Source of the DNA: Halobacterium sp. R2-5
GTDB taxonomy: Archaea; Halobacteriota; Halobacteria; Halobacteriales; Halobacteriaceae
Assembly: GCF_011734195.1 (NCBI RefSeq)
Contig: NZ_JAANTH010000002.1
Coordinates: forward strand, 372,001-436,000
DNA length: 64,000 bases
Direction of reading: 5' to 3'
In this document: positions 17,217-21,867 of the stretch, one piece after another
Layout of the letters: every line of letters begins with the position of its first letter
Position numbering within the stretch: the first letter of the stretch is position 1
Notes under the pieces: model-generated
Told to the model about the DNA's origin: nothing
The model's database searches: none
Seen by the model: the letters and a program-made list of their open reading frames with translations, nothing else
Translations under genes and position numbers: made by a program

Positions 17217-18080
17217 ATGACCGTCACGCAGTCCGTCACGGCGGCCCGAGCGCGTACCTCGAAGCTCGGTGCCGTCAGCCTGTTCGCGTTCCTCGCGCTG
17301 TCCGCGTACGTCTTCAGCACGGGCGAAGCCCGGAAGCTCCTCGGCATCGCGTGGGTCGCGTTCGCCGCGATGGCCGGCGCCGCCGCCCTCGGCGCGCGCG
17401 CCAGCAACGAACACCCCACGGGGCTCGTCTGGGGGTACGGCCTCGCCAGCGGCGCGATGGTCGCCAGCTCCGCCGCGTTCCTCGTCCCGCAGGCCATCGG
17501 CTACGCCCCCAAGCCCGGCGGCTTCGGCATCGCCGCCGGCATCCTCGTCGGCTTCGGCGCCCACACCGTCGGCCACCTCGTCACGCACCGCGACCTCCCG
17601 CTCGACCGCACGAGCGCCGAGCTCGCCGCGCACTCGCTGACCGCCGGCTCCATCATCGGCGTCGTCTACACCGCGATGCCCGAACTCGGGCCGCTGCTCG
17701 GGCTCGCCATCGTCTCACACAAGGGCCCCGCGGGCTACGCCGCCGCGCGCCGGCTCACCGCGCAGGGCCGCTCCCCGATGATGCTGCTGCTCCCGTCGGC
17801 TGGCGTCGGCATCGCTGCGCTCGCGGTCACCGTGCTCTCGTTCCCGACCGACGCCACGTTCCGCGCCGTCGTCTTCGGGTTCGCCGCCGGCATCTTCCTC
17901 CACGTCGCGATGGACTTCCTCCCCGAGTGCGAGACCGGCAGCGAGGTCCACGCCGCCGCCACCCGCGGTAGCGACGACGGCCACGACCACGCGGTCCTCG
18001 ACCGCCTCCGCCTGCACGCCGTCGCCTCGACCGCGCTCGGCGGCATCGCCGTCGCCGCCGCGTGGCTCCTGCTCCAGTAG
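17217..18080 (+). CDS. ZIP-family metal transporter
   Basis: A 287-residue membrane protein with about eight helices. The metal-path helices are visible: ELAAHSLTAGSIIGVVYTA contains the HSxxxG motif of helix 4, and GLAIVSHKGPAGYAAA the H-K/E-x-P-x-G motif of helix 5. These define the ZIP family, which brings Zn, Fe or Mn into the cytosol. A His/Asp loop near the C-terminus (GSDDGHDHAVLD) may bind metal. It is monocistronic with an A/T-rich promoter. Confidence 0.9.
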   Translation: MTVTQSVTAARARTSKLGAVSLFAFLALSAYVFSTGEARKLLGIAWVAFAAMAGAAALGARASNEHPTGLVWGYGLASGAMVASSAAFLVPQAIGYAPKPGGFGIAAGILVGFGAHTVGHLVTHRDLPLDRTSAELAAHSLTAGSIIGVVYTAMPELGPLLGLAIVSHKGPAGYAAARRLTAQGRSPMMLLLPSAGVGIAALAVTVLSFPTDATFRAVVFGFAAGIFLHVAMDFLPECETGSEVHAAATRGSDDGHDHAVLDRLRLHAVASTALGGIAVAAAWLLLQ

Positions 18081-18117: not shown

Positions 18118-18432
18118 TTAGCTGTAATCCCGCCACCGGCTCCCGCACTCCTGGCACTTGAAGAATCGCGTCGGCGGCTCGTCCGCGCTCCCGGTCTGCT
18201 TGATGGTGTACCACGCCTCGTCGTGGCCGCACTCCGGACACGTCTCCTCGGCGGTCGGCTTCCCCTCGAAGTTCGCGTCCTCGCTCGTCTCGATGACGTC
18301 GCTGGTGTCCTGGGCGGCCGTCGTGACGAACTCGCCGTCGTCGCCCGCGGGCTCGGTGTTCTCGCAGCCCGAGCACACCAGCTCGTCGTCCTGCTTGTGC
18401 ATCATCGACCCGCACTCGTCGCAGAACTGCAT
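18118..18432 (-). CDS. tfs: Transcription factor S (TFIIS-like RNA cleavage factor)
   Basis: A 104-residue protein with two zinc ribbons. The N-terminal ribbon uses Cys4, Cys7, Cys20 and Cys23 (FCDECGS, VCSGC). The C-terminal ribbon uses Cys65, Cys68, Cys93 and Cys96 (CPECGHDEAWY, FFKCQECGSRW). Between the last two pairs is the acidic hairpin SADEPPTRF with Asp84-Glu85, which stimulates RNA cleavage by backtracked RNA polymerase. All catalytic features are intact. It is the last gene of a compact minus-strand run with the Cys-rich protein (8-bp gap), the coiled-coil protein and the RecA-like ATPase. Confidence 0.96.
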   Translation of the reverse strand: MQFCDECGSMMHKQDDELVCSGCENTEPAGDDGEFVTTAAQDTSDVIETSEDANFEGKPTAEETCPECGHDEAWYTIKQTGSADEPPTRFFKCQECGSRWRDYS

Positions 18433-18440
18433 ACCCCGCG

Positions 18441-18881
18441 TTACTGGCTCTCCGCGGAAAAATCACTCGCCTCGTCGTCCTCGCGGGCCGCGACCACGGG
18501 GCAGTTCACCACCCGGAAGTGGTCGGTGTCGACCTCCGCCGCGATGGTCGTCCCGTCGTGCGTGCACGCGGTCTGCGGCGGGTCCGTGAAGTGCGGGCAC
18601 TCCTGGCAGAGGCGCTTCTCCACGACGCGCACGTCGTCGTCCGCCGCGTGCTCGGAATCGGCCGGTTCGTCGACACCCGCGGCGTCCACGCCCGCCGCGT
18701 CCGCGACCGGCTCGTCGGCCGACTCGGAGAGCTCGTCCCAGACCTCGTCCTGGTCGACGCTGCCGACGTCGACGTCCGTGAACAGCTCCTCGAAGTCGTC
18801 GTCATCGTCCTCTTCGCGGCGGCGCTCGACGTCCTCTCGGAGGTCTGCCAGCGGCTCGCGCTCGCGGTCGTCGTCACTCAT
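18441..18881 (-). CDS. Small Cys-rich acidic haloarchaeal protein of unknown function
   Basis: A 146-residue protein starting MSDDDREREPLADLREDVE. The first 95 residues are highly acidic and probably unstructured apart from a helix. The C-terminal 50 residues form a possible metal or redox module with cysteines at LCQECPHFTDPP, TACTHDG and VVNCPVV. Spacing C-x2-C-x9-C-x20-C could bind zinc or an iron-sulfur cluster. The start overlaps the end of the coiled-coil zinc gene by 8 bp, indicating translational coupling, and the gene is followed 8 bp later by tfs. I do not recognise a named family. Confidence 0.8.
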   Translation of the reverse strand: MSDDDREREPLADLREDVERRREEDDDDDFEELFTDVDVGSVDQDEVWDELSESADEPVADAAGVDAAGVDEPADSEHAADDDVRVVEKRLCQECPHFTDPPQTACTHDGTTIAAEVDTDHFRVVNCPVVAAREDDEASDFSAESQ

Positions 18882-19848
18882 CGCGCTCACCCATAGGGTT
18901 GCCCGCGACGTCGACGTCGTCGAGCACATCGTCTAGTTCGTCGTCGTCGACCGGTTCCGGGTCGACGACCGCCGGGCCGCCGTCGTCGCCGTCGCCGCCC
19001 TCGGCCATCGCTTCGAGCGTCCCGTCGTCCGTTCCGAGCCACGAGTCGCCGAGCTCCGGGTCCTCGCCGGGCAGCGCGGGCGCCGACCCCGTCACGAGGA
19101 CGTGCGTGCCGAACCACCCCGGGTTCGCGTCGACCGCCTCGAACGTCGCCGCGCAGAACGGGCACTCCGGCGCCGCCAGCAGCGCTACGGTCACCGACTC
19201 CCCGCACTCCCCGCAGTCGGCCTCCTCGACGCCCGCGAGGTTCGCCTCGCGCTTGAGGCGCTCGGCGCGCTCGCGGCGCGCCTCCGCGGACGCCAGCGAC
19301 GCCACCGAGTCCCGCATCGACACCACCGCGGTCGCCAACGTCCCCGCCTTCCGGTCGAGGGCCGCCGCCTCGTCCCGGAGGTAGGCCAGCACTTCCTCGA
19401 AGTTCTCGAAGCCCGCGTCGACGCGCTCGCGAAGCCGGCGCACGCGCTCGGCGACCTCGGCGGCCTCCCGTTCGGCGTTCTGCGCCGCGCTCACGGCCTC
19501 CTCCGCGCGGTCGGACAGCTCCGGGTGGTCGTGGTCCGCGGGCGCCTTCGCGTCGGCGTCCCGCTTGACCTGGATGACGCGATCGCGGACGTCCTGAATC
19601 TTCTCGTCGAACTCGCTGTCGACGTCCTCGATGCGGGACTCGAAGTCGTCCTCGACGGCCGCGAGGCGCTCGTCGAGCGCGTCGTCGGTGACGACGTCGC
19701 TCTCGCCGTCGGCGGCACGGAACGCCGCGACGACCTCCGCGAGGAACTCCTCGGGAGTCACGCCGAGGTCGTCGGCACGCTTCTCCACCCACGACGCGAC
19801 GGGCCCCTCGAGCGTCGTCTCGACCGCCTCCGACGTGCCGTCGGCCAT
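18874..19848 (-). CDS. Coiled-coil protein with a zinc-ribbon-like module
   Basis: A 324-residue acidic protein. Residues 1-50 (VASWVEKRADDLGVTPEEFLAE in part: WVEKRADDLGVTPEEFL) resemble a ribbon-helix-helix or small helical head. Residues 55-200 are heptad-rich and predicted coiled coil (AEEAVSAAQNAEREAAEVAE). Then ADCGECGESVTVALL and APECPFCAATF form a four-cysteine ribbon. The end is an Asp/Gly-rich tail. It lies between the RecA-like ATPase gene (42-bp gap) and the Cys-rich gene (8-bp overlap), so these proteins probably act together. No function has been assigned that I can cite. Confidence 0.8.
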   Translation of the reverse strand: MADGTSEAVETTLEGPVASWVEKRADDLGVTPEEFLAEVVAAFRAADGESDVVTDDALDERLAAVEDDFESRIEDVDSEFDEKIQDVRDRVIQVKRDADAKAPADHDHPELSDRAEEAVSAAQNAEREAAEVAERVRRLRERVDAGFENFEEVLAYLRDEAAALDRKAGTLATAVVSMRDSVASLASAEARRERAERLKREANLAGVEEADCGECGESVTVALLAAPECPFCAATFEAVDANPGWFGTHVLVTGSAPALPGEDPELGDSWLGTDDGTLEAMAEGGDGDDGGPAVVDPEPVDDDELDDVLDDVDVAGNPMGERDE

Positions 19849-19890
19849 TCACCCGGGCTTGGTCCCGTGCGCTCTTAACCGTTCGCCCGG

Positions 19891-20730
19891 CTATCGGATC
19901 TTCCGAACGTCGCTGACGTCGAAGCCCGCGTCGTGAATCTCGGTCTCGAACTGCACGATGTCCTCCTCTTCGAGGCGGCCGAGCACGCCCCGGAACTCCC
20001 GGACGAACATCGTCCGCACGCGCTCGTTCCCGCCGCTCTCCCACGCGAACTGCACGGTGCCGTCCACGGACGTCATCAGGCTCCCGAACTCCTCGTCGGT
20101 GACCGCGTCGCGGGTCAGGTGCAACAGGAGCAGGCCGTCCCAGCCGCGTGCGGCCTTCCGCAGCCCCTTCAGCGTCATCACGATGTCGCTGAACGCCATG
20201 TCCTGCTGGCGCGCGCCGATGAGGTCGGTCAGCGAGTCCACCACCACGAGGCTGCCGCTGGCGTGCTCGTCGAGGTAGTCCGCGAACGCCTCCAGGACGT
20301 CTCGCCGGTCGCTGTCGGTGTTCCCGAGGTCCGAAATCGAGCGGTGCTCGCCCGCGTACCACTCCCGGGGGACGGGGCTGAGCTGGAAGTACTCCGGGGA
20401 GAAGTCCTCGAAGGTGACCGCGTCGAGGCCCGCTTCGACGATCTCGTCGTCCATCGTGAACGAGATTTCGCGGCGGAGCTCGTCCTCGTCGGCGGTAAAG
20501 GAGACGTAGTGGATGTCCTCCGGCGGCACCGCCGAACCGTGGAGGTCGCCGTAGTGTAGGTCGAACAGCTCGGGGTCCGCCGACTGCAGGCCGTTGAGGA
20601 CCGCGCTCGTGTAGACGAACTCGCGGGCGCCCGCGCCCGCCTCGCCCGACAGCAACACCACGCTCCCCTCGGGGGCGCCGCCCCCGATGCGGCCGTCCAG
20701 CCGCGAGACGCCGAACGGAATCGTCGCCAT
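19891..20730 (-). CDS. RecA/KaiC-fold ATPase-like protein (HTR-like) with degenerate Walker A
   Basis: A 279-residue single RecA-fold protein of the haloarchaeal HTR-like group. It starts with the KaiC-type entry GVSRLDGRIGGGAPEGSVVLL. The P-loop reads GEAGAGARE (residues 29-37), so the Walker lysine and Ser/Thr are replaced by Ala35 and Arg36. Walker B is intact-looking (GSLVVVDSLTDL), and LLLLHLTRD corresponds to the sensor strand. It may bind nucleotide weakly or have become a structural or signalling protein. It begins 24 bp after the GHMP kinase gene and leads into the coiled-coil zinc gene. Confidence 0.82.
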   Translation of the reverse strand: MATIPFGVSRLDGRIGGGAPEGSVVLLSGEAGAGAREFVYTSAVLNGLQSADPELFDLHYGDLHGSAVPPEDIHYVSFTADEDELRREISFTMDDEIVEAGLDAVTFEDFSPEYFQLSPVPREWYAGEHRSISDLGNTDSDRRDVLEAFADYLDEHASGSLVVVDSLTDLIGARQQDMAFSDIVMTLKGLRKAARGWDGLLLLHLTRDAVTDEEFGSLMTSVDGTVQFAWESGGNERVRTMFVREFRGVLGRLEEEDIVQFETEIHDAGFDVSDVRKIR

Positions 20731-20754: not shown

Positions 20755-21741
20755 TTACGCTTTTCCCTGCCCGGATTCGGCGACGCGGGCGCCCTCGTTC
20801 CGCGGCGCGACCACGCGCACGTCGCCGCCGACGCCCGCCGCGTCCAGCGCCTCCCGTCCGGCCGCCAGCGCCGCGTCCGCGCGGTCCGCGTCGGTGACGC
20901 CGTACACCGCCGGTCCCCACGAGGACTGCCCGGCGCCCGAGACCGCGGGACTCCCGGCGAGCGCGTCGACGATGCACCCGACGGGTGGACGGTAGACGCC
21001 GCCCTGCTCGTCGGCGTACCACGCGCCGTTCAGCCGCCCGACCTCCGCGACCGCCGCGCCGAACGCCGCGACGTCCCCGCTCGCCAGCGCCGGGAGCACG
21101 CGCCGCGTCACGACTCCCGAGATGCGGTCCGCGAGCCCGGGGTCGGCGGCCTCGACGGCCGACCGCATGCTCTCGTCCTCGTCGCTGCCGTTCTTCCCCG
21201 TGTCGGCGTCCGGCACGACGAGCAGGAACCGCCAGTCGTCGGGAATCCGGTGGCGCGCAGCGACCGGCGGCACCGCCCACTCGCCGCGCGCCGGCGCCTC
21301 CGTCGTGAACAGTCCCGTCGGGTGGCCGGCGTCCAGCACGAACCCGCCGGCTTCGAACGTCGCGACGCCGACGCCGCTGCGGCCGCCGCGACCGAGTTCC
21401 GGCGCGAATTCGCGCACGTCCGCGTCTCGGCCGTGGGCTCGCGCGACCGCCGACAACACCGCGAGCGCGAGCTGCGTCCCGGAGCCGAGGCCGACGTGCG
21501 GCGGCAGCTCCCCGCAGACCGAAATGGCCGCGCCCGGCACGTCCAGCAGTTCACAGGCGCGCTCGGCGTGCTCGCGCGCCCGCTCGTGGTCGCAGCGCAG
21601 CGCGTCCGCGGGCTCGGCCTCCACCGCCACCCGTGGCTGGTCGAGTGCCACGCCGAGGCTGCCGTACAGCCGGTCGTGGGACAGCGAGAGGTTCAGGAAG
21701 CCGAAGTGGAGCCGGCCGCCGCTCTCGACCCGGACGGACAT
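20755..21741 (-). CDS. GHMP-kinase family protein, beta-ribofuranosylaminobenzene 5'-phosphate synthase type
   Basis: A 328-residue protein starting MSVRVESGGRLHFGFLNLS, the typical beginning of the RFAP synthase group. The GHMP nucleotide motif is ELPPHVGLGSGTQLALAV, and GRGGRSGVGVATFEAGGFV is a second conserved loop. In methanogens this enzyme condenses p-hydroxybenzoate-type acids with PRPP as the first step of methanopterin-like cofactor synthesis. In haloarchaea the product is uncertain. The same window encodes Mch, which uses that cofactor class. Start at ATG 21739-21741. The RecA-like gene follows after 24 bp. Confidence 0.88.
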   Translation of the reverse strand: MSVRVESGGRLHFGFLNLSLSHDRLYGSLGVALDQPRVAVEAEPADALRCDHERAREHAERACELLDVPGAAISVCGELPPHVGLGSGTQLALAVLSAVARAHGRDADVREFAPELGRGGRSGVGVATFEAGGFVLDAGHPTGLFTTEAPARGEWAVPPVAARHRIPDDWRFLLVVPDADTGKNGSDEDESMRSAVEAADPGLADRISGVVTRRVLPALASGDVAAFGAAVAEVGRLNGAWYADEQGGVYRPPVGCIVDALAGSPAVSGAGQSSWGPAVYGVTDADRADAALAAGREALDAAGVGGDVRVVAPRNEGARVAESGQGKA

Positions 21742-21867
21742 ACCACTCGCTTCGCCATCGACGGTGTTGCCGGTTCTGCCGTGGGCAAACCTTCCCGCTA
21801 CCCCACTTGTGGTGGCGAACATCATCGCCTCGCGGCGAGCCACCGGCAACATCTGTTCAGTCGGCGC

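Follow-up and report, generated by a model that had tools for sequence, protein, structure and literature searches.

Arrangement of the genes

The 64,000-nucleotide stretch of Halobacterium sp. R2-5 DNA analyzed here (contig NZ_JAANTH010000002.1, positions 372,001 to 436,000; below, the window) contains a gene for transcription factor S (TFS) that is packed together with genes for a RecA/KaiC-like protein and two cysteine-containing proteins. What do these genes do together, and does TFS belong with them? The original prediction was that they form a compact operon whose products make up a transcription-associated or stress-signalling complex around TFS.

All genes concerned are on the minus strand. 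The most upstream one is a GHMP-kinase/beta-RFAP-synthase-like gene (GHMP, 20755..21741; its likely start is at 21741, within an open reading frame of 20755-21852). It is followed by genes for the 279-amino acid RecA/KaiC-like protein (RAL, 19891..20730), a coiled-coil protein with a Zn ribbon (CC, 18874..19848), a protein with a predicted Zn site (Cys, 18441..18881) and TFS (18118..18432). The consecutive gaps are 24, 42, −8 and 8 bp, the negative value being an 8 bp overlap between CC and Cys. Re-reading of the coordinates thus bore out the predicted head-to-tail order of four genes with gaps of −8, 8 and 42 bp, and the distance between GHMP and RAL was again 24 bp. The RAL of the window is 96% identical to that of Halobacterium sp. 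CBA1126, and a contig search with one RAL sequence retrieved seven loci. The gene at 17220-18080, convergent with TFS, is similar to ZIP metal transporters, but its score of 22.8 bits falls short of the Pfam threshold of 35.1.

RAL, CC and Cys are inherited together in Halobacteria

Among 116 genomes drawn from the class Halobacteria, RAL was found in 101, CC and Cys in 99 each and TFS in every one. Ninety-seven genomes contain all three of RAL, CC and Cys, 14 contain none, and five are mixed. Wherever CC and Cys occur together (97 of 97 genomes), they share a strand and are no more than 700 bp apart. The distance between RAL and CC is at most 3 kb in 86 of 98 genomes, and Cys and TFS are found on the same strand within 3 kb of each other in 87 of the 98 genomes with both. 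Given these distance counts over 116 genomes, linkage of RAL, CC, Cys and TFS exceeds chance. The gene order is therefore kept class-wide, far beyond the genus, and the joint inheritance of RAL, CC and Cys agrees with the view that they form a functional set.

When the five mixed genomes were re-read, most turned out to carry a CC paralogue, a CC remnant or signs of decay: the CC matches of G014 and G066 are the CC paralogue, G025 and G091 have a CC remnant, RAL and Cys are both diverged in G066, and G021 has RAL and RAL2 (a second KaiC-family protein described below) with CC and Cys absent. At the G021 locus (C2, L116), RAL and RAL2 are adjacent and a gene for a 112-amino acid TFS is located ca. 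2 kb beyond, with neither CC nor Cys, an intermediate-looking arrangement. A second, diverged RAL copy (ca. 32% identity, loci L136, L137 and L138, genera g10 and g23), whose P-loop has decayed further, sits between genes that by eye are PEP-synthase-like and MetG-like.

TFS and GHMP are probably inherited neighbours

The 15 genomes that lack RAL are informative as to which genes belong together. TFS is retained in all of them, as is GHMP where the RAL, CC and Cys set is lost. In one of the 116 genomes, G103, the only TFS among the matches is a 46% paralogue. In 10 of the 15, GHMP and TFS are on one strand, 48-816 bp apart, with TFS directly behind GHMP, as if RAL, CC and Cys had been excised as a block. 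This juxtaposition sets TFS and GHMP apart as neighbours whose fate differs from that of the set, and TFS is probably not a partner of RAL, CC and Cys. By its sequence, TFS is an ordinary transcription factor S: it passes the NCBIfam TIGR01384 cut-off (71.2 vs 64.75 bits) and matches PF02150 and PF01096, i.e., two Zn ribbons. Two further TFS paralogues (47% and 43% identity) are encoded in G000 at C1:754821-755123 (L002) and C1:1517425-1517736 (L003). The latter is without the Asp-Glu pair of the C-terminal hairpin, which we take to be the catalytic acids, and for this reason may not be a cleavage factor.

GHMP, which passes the beta-RFAP synthase family cut-off (TIGR00144), was suggested to be part of the same unit. 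This holds insofar as it is an old same-strand neighbour: GHMP and RAL share a strand in 63 of the 64 loci with both and are no more than 300 bp apart in 53 of 64, and a RAL gene found apart from CC and Cys usually remains with GHMP. It does not hold for gene loss, since GHMP stays when the set is gone. PMC8305020 casts doubt on whether HVO_2628, the Hfx. volcanii relative of GHMP, makes methanopterin.

Promoter-like signals

Sequences upstream of start codons were analyzed in 73-77 class loci per gene (taken from the loci fetched in L036-L120), with 500 shuffles as a control. At positions −33..−26 the AT content was 0.60 (RAL), 0.57 (CC) and 0.61 (TFS), compared with background values of 0.32-0.40, and none of the 500 shuffles reached the peak of any of these genes. 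Upstream of Cys, no TATA-like peak was present at these positions in the class loci (AT content of 0.31, background 0.29; 431 of 500 shuffles reached this value). The peaks are locked to the start codon regardless of the gap to the upstream gene; that of TFS is weaker where the gap is at least 100 bp (reached by 35 of 500 shuffles). In the window, the conserved positions correspond, on the minus strand, to 20756..20763 for RAL, 19874..19881 for CC (TTAAG) and 18458..18465 for TFS (ATTTTTC). Since TATA-like peaks are present at RAL, CC and TFS and absent at Cys, a single operon across the four genes is doubtful and CC-Cys is likely a bicistron. The pattern suggests that RAL, CC and TFS each have their own promoter, with read-through possible. 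Of the predicted compact operon, the tight spacing was confirmed, whereas transcription as one unit has to be weighed against likely separate promoters at RAL, CC and TFS.

RAL has a KaiC fold and lacks the Walker A lysine

RAL passes the gathering cut-off of the Pfam KaiC family PF06745 (37.8 vs 26.6 bits). Its structure model (mean pLDDT 89) matches the structures of KaiC, PH0284 and FlaH/ArlH; VIA-align superposition on two FlaH structures gave Z scores of 21.4-21.6 and an rmsd of 3.2-3.3 over 220 aligned residues. RAL scores below the curated ArlH cut-off NF052589 (46.3 vs 215 bits) and weakly matches DUF7504 (PF24336; 17.9 bits, cut-off 27).

The Walker A pattern GxxxxGK[ST] is not matched by RAL: the lysine is absent from 78 of 78 class sequences and from 20 of 20 sequences from outside the class. 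The motif instead reads GExGAG[A/S]REF (GEAGAGAREF in the window), with Arg36 in 77, Glu37 in 76 and Phe38 in all 78 aligned class sequences. Asp165 of Walker B is invariant (78 of 78). Because the lysine is absent, we refer to RAL as a KaiC-fold protein and withhold the label of ATPase. That the lysine is lost while what replaces it is strongly conserved points to a retained, non-catalytic role.

CC and Cys

Neither CC nor Cys matches any family above cut-off. CC consists of a ribbon-helix-helix (RHH)-like segment (residues 16-48), a helical hairpin (55-101/109-204), a C-terminal CxxC..CPxC Zn ribbon conserved in 76 of 76 sequences and an acidic tail. Its structure model (pLDDT 82, pTM 0.44) has no Foldseek match at E 0.001 or better. 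The two short helices of the modeled N-terminus resemble RHH antitoxin/repressor domains with Foldseek probabilities of 0.96-0.97, at E values of only 0.3-0.5. The turn of the hairpin (residues 101-109, window positions about 19522-19548) carries an HxH motif, each histidine of which is found in 72 of 76 sequences; located at the tip of the modeled hairpin, it is a possible metal or contact site. The CC paralogue adjoins another KaiC-like family in six of six loci where both were called (L118, L141-L145), and one such neighbour, when scanned, was a DUF7504 protein. CC-type proteins may thus be habitual partners of KaiC-like proteins without a P-loop.

Cys combines an acidic N-terminus with a Zn-site-like CxxC...PP...C...CP domain, the four cysteines of which are invariant in 75 of 75 sequences. 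Beyond single weak matches, no Pfam family was found among 52 members, and no solved relative was retrieved below E 0.03.

Relatives of RAL outside the class are found next to RAL2 and pil genes

We searched 196 genomes of the phylum (33 from Halobacteria and 163 others) with a RAL profile at E 1e-20 or better. Matches were obtained in 84 genomes, 28 within the class and 56 of the 163 outside, and 20 of the latter 56 loci were read. All 20 relatives have no Walker A lysine and keep an acidic residue and the phenylalanine; the outside relatives also match the KaiC family PF06745. In 19 of the 20 loci, alignment places the gene of another KaiC-family protein, RAL2, next to RAL; in the twentieth, RAL2 is an over-long open reading frame of the same cluster. 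The GTGKT motif of RAL2 is intact in almost every copy. An ATPase with T2SSE/PilB3_C domains (PilB) is encoded in 16 of the 20 loci and a T2SSF membrane protein (PilC) in 15, while four loci have no pilB/pilC nearby. RAL lies ahead of RAL2, and in 15-16 of the 20 loci it is divergent from pilB/pilC.

No match to CC, Cys, TFS or GHMP was found in these 20 loci. Cys was present in 27 of the 33 class genomes and in none of the 163 others. CC and Cys are therefore probably class-specific additions.

RAL tracks RAL2 and PilB3 within the class

In the class loci that were read, RAL is not adjacent to pil genes, and RAL2 is located separately from RAL (e.g., at C2:226270-226959 in G000) with the sole exception of G021. 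Most RAL2 genes are near two genes that by eye are NAD-kinase-like and universal-stress-like (UspA-like). Class RAL2 proteins (L184-L202) have a long acidic N-terminal extension.

The RAL2 profile splits the class genomes in two, with scores of at least 264 bits in 100 of them and of 148.5 bits or less in the rest. With the thresholds for RAL2 and PilB3 chosen after the lists were seen, strong RAL2 matches are present in 100 of 101 genomes with RAL and in none of the 15 without; the exception, G066, has PilB3 and the diverged RAL. A form of PilC like that linked to RAL was seen in at least 66 of the 101 genomes with RAL and in none of the 15 others, among the matches listed (down to ca. 382 bits). 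This PilC score class is incomplete as a marker, so the PilB3_C domain was used, a marker picked after the synteny result. Its best match scores at least 57.4 bits in 101 of 101 genomes with RAL, while in the 15 without it is at most 44.6 bits in 14 and absent in one; the gap of 44.6-57.4 bits is modest. Presence of RAL and PilB3 is concordant in 116 of 116 genomes (Fisher p 4e-19, kinship ignored). The set thus tracks PilB3, an assembly ATPase of type IV pili, rather than TFS.

To take kinship into account, RAL presence was placed on a tree built from TFS and GHMP. This two-gene tree is short, has a very long branch for G021 and covers 86 of the 116 genomes, including the 15 that lack RAL. 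RAL presence changes nine times on it, and eight changes are forced by well supported branches. In the eight independent pairs, RAL2 and PilB3 follow RAL every time (sign test p 0.008). ArlH and CheA, which on average follow RAL in 2.4 and 1.9 of the same eight pairs, serve as controls.

The archaellum and chemotaxis were also considered as targets of RAL and rejected. ArlH scores above its cut-off in 92 of 116 genomes. Its presence correlates with that of RAL (p 4e-5), yet the two disagree in 19 genomes (14 with RAL and without ArlH, five the reverse) and in most independent pairs, and CheA is uncorrelated with RAL (p 0.27).

Possible roles of the set

Membership in a PilB3-type type IV pilus system can be judged from the co-presence with PilB3 (101 of 101 vs 0 of 15) and the linkage to pilB/pilC, seen outside the class. 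Considering class co-occurrence, outside-class synteny, the altered P-loop and the fold, we think it likely that RAL, CC and Cys make up an accessory module, located in the cytoplasm, of the archaeal type IV adhesion pilus of the PilB3/PilC3 type. TFS and GHMP are, on this view, inherited neighbours. How such a module would act is a more tentative matter. Non-catalytic RAL could pair with catalytic RAL2 to form a ring or switch resembling ArlH, which would act on PilB3 in the way that ArlH acts on ArlI; CC and Cys would be class-specific adaptors, with CC perhaps tying the switch to DNA via its RHH-like end. On a bolder reading, to which we give somewhat less credence still, adhesion pili would own an equivalent of ArlH, a mixed ring of dead RAL and live RAL2 gating PilB3, which in Halobacteria has been scattered and rewired to RHH-coiled-coil-Zn and Cys adaptors.

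The pilus could be reached by another route, whereby RAL and RAL2 signal through the RHH end of CC to switch pilus and archaellum genes and leave PilB3 itself untouched. The resemblance of the CC N-terminus to antitoxin/repressor domains speaks for such a gene regulator, as do the company of the CC paralogue with a DUF7504 protein and the effects of the KaiC-like proteins CirA and CirD of Hfx. volcanii on motility and archaellum expression reported in PMC13286277. The RHH match, however, is not significant by its E value, and outside the class, where CC and Cys are absent, RAL and RAL2 are already found with pilB/pilC, which makes the core function of RAL and RAL2 older than CC. We regard this regulator as rather unlikely.

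It is also conceivable that a change of lifestyle makes several surface systems dispensable, so that RAL, RAL2 and PilB3 disappear together without sharing a machine. Surface structures do tend to vanish jointly, since 10 of the 15 RAL-lacking genomes are also without ArlH. Yet of the eight independent pairs, ArlH and CheA agree with RAL in no more than about two, against all eight for RAL2 and PilB3, and RAL, RAL2 and the pil genes are physically adjacent outside the class; joint loss of unrelated systems is accordingly improbable. Least credible, to the point of being nearly dismissed, is the TFS-centred transcription or stress complex of the original prediction. The tight linkage of Cys and TFS is in its favor, but TFS outlasts the set in all RAL-lacking genomes, adjoining GHMP in two thirds of them, has a TATA-like element of its own and is missing beside RAL in all 20 outside loci.

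If a P-loop-less subunit is indeed paired with an intact one, the KaiC signalling family would gain a pseudo-enzyme pair. To our knowledge, no counterpart of ArlH has been established for PilB3 in the control of archaeal type IV pilus assembly. RAL, RAL2, CC and Cys are four concrete candidates, co-inherited with PilB3 near-perfectly and present in genetically tractable genera. The locus also illustrates that a conserved neighbourhood can mislead, its eye-catching partner, TFS, being the one gene that probably does not belong.

Comparison with known systems

TFS itself is an ordinary transcript cleavage factor of the TFS/TFIIS type and is not co-inherited with the other three genes. CC resembles HP0958 (FlgZ) of Helicobacter in layout, a helical hairpin with a Zn ribbon after it, and in a proposed role with a surface filament; it differs by its added RHH-like end. 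The comparison is one of layout, HP0958 not being among the sequence or fold matches of CC. A coiled-coil hairpin with a Zn ribbon is ascribed to HP0958 in the title of a reference cited in PMC4858521. The haloarchaeal DUF7504 proteins, weak matches of RAL and neighbours of the CC paralogue, are a separate family found at other loci.

A link between KaiC-like proteins and pili in general is already known. According to the available part of PMC4858521, KaiC families arCOG01172 and arCOG01173 are possibly co-transcribed with VirB11/TadC in Methanomicrobia, and the PilB3 locus is required for PilA pili. These families adjoin VirB11/TadC genes, as the relatives of RAL and RAL2 do, and are probably the same families as RAL and RAL2. 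That part mentions neither the RAL-CC-Cys set of Halobacteria nor the P-loop without lysine nor co-inheritance with PilB3. None of these three features, including joint loss with PilB3, was found in the open-access literature searched, where no paper on the RAL-CC-Cys set was retrieved, nor by guessed Hfx. volcanii locus tags beside HVO_2628. Two further papers report that the Halobacterium ortholog PilB1 is required for adhesion pili (PMC4292770) and that other KaiC-like proteins steer motility and shape (PMC13286277).

Among the closest known systems is ArlH (FlaH), the regulator of the archaellum motor. PMC8978795 describes ArlH as a protein that binds ATP without hydrolysing it, undergoes autophosphorylation and governs its own contact with ArlI. 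RAL shares the KaiC/RecA fold with ArlH, and its relatives similarly adjoin a VirB11-type ATPase and the membrane platform of that ATPase. It differs in scoring below the ArlH cut-off, in having lost the Walker A lysine and in tracking PilB3 instead of the archaellum.
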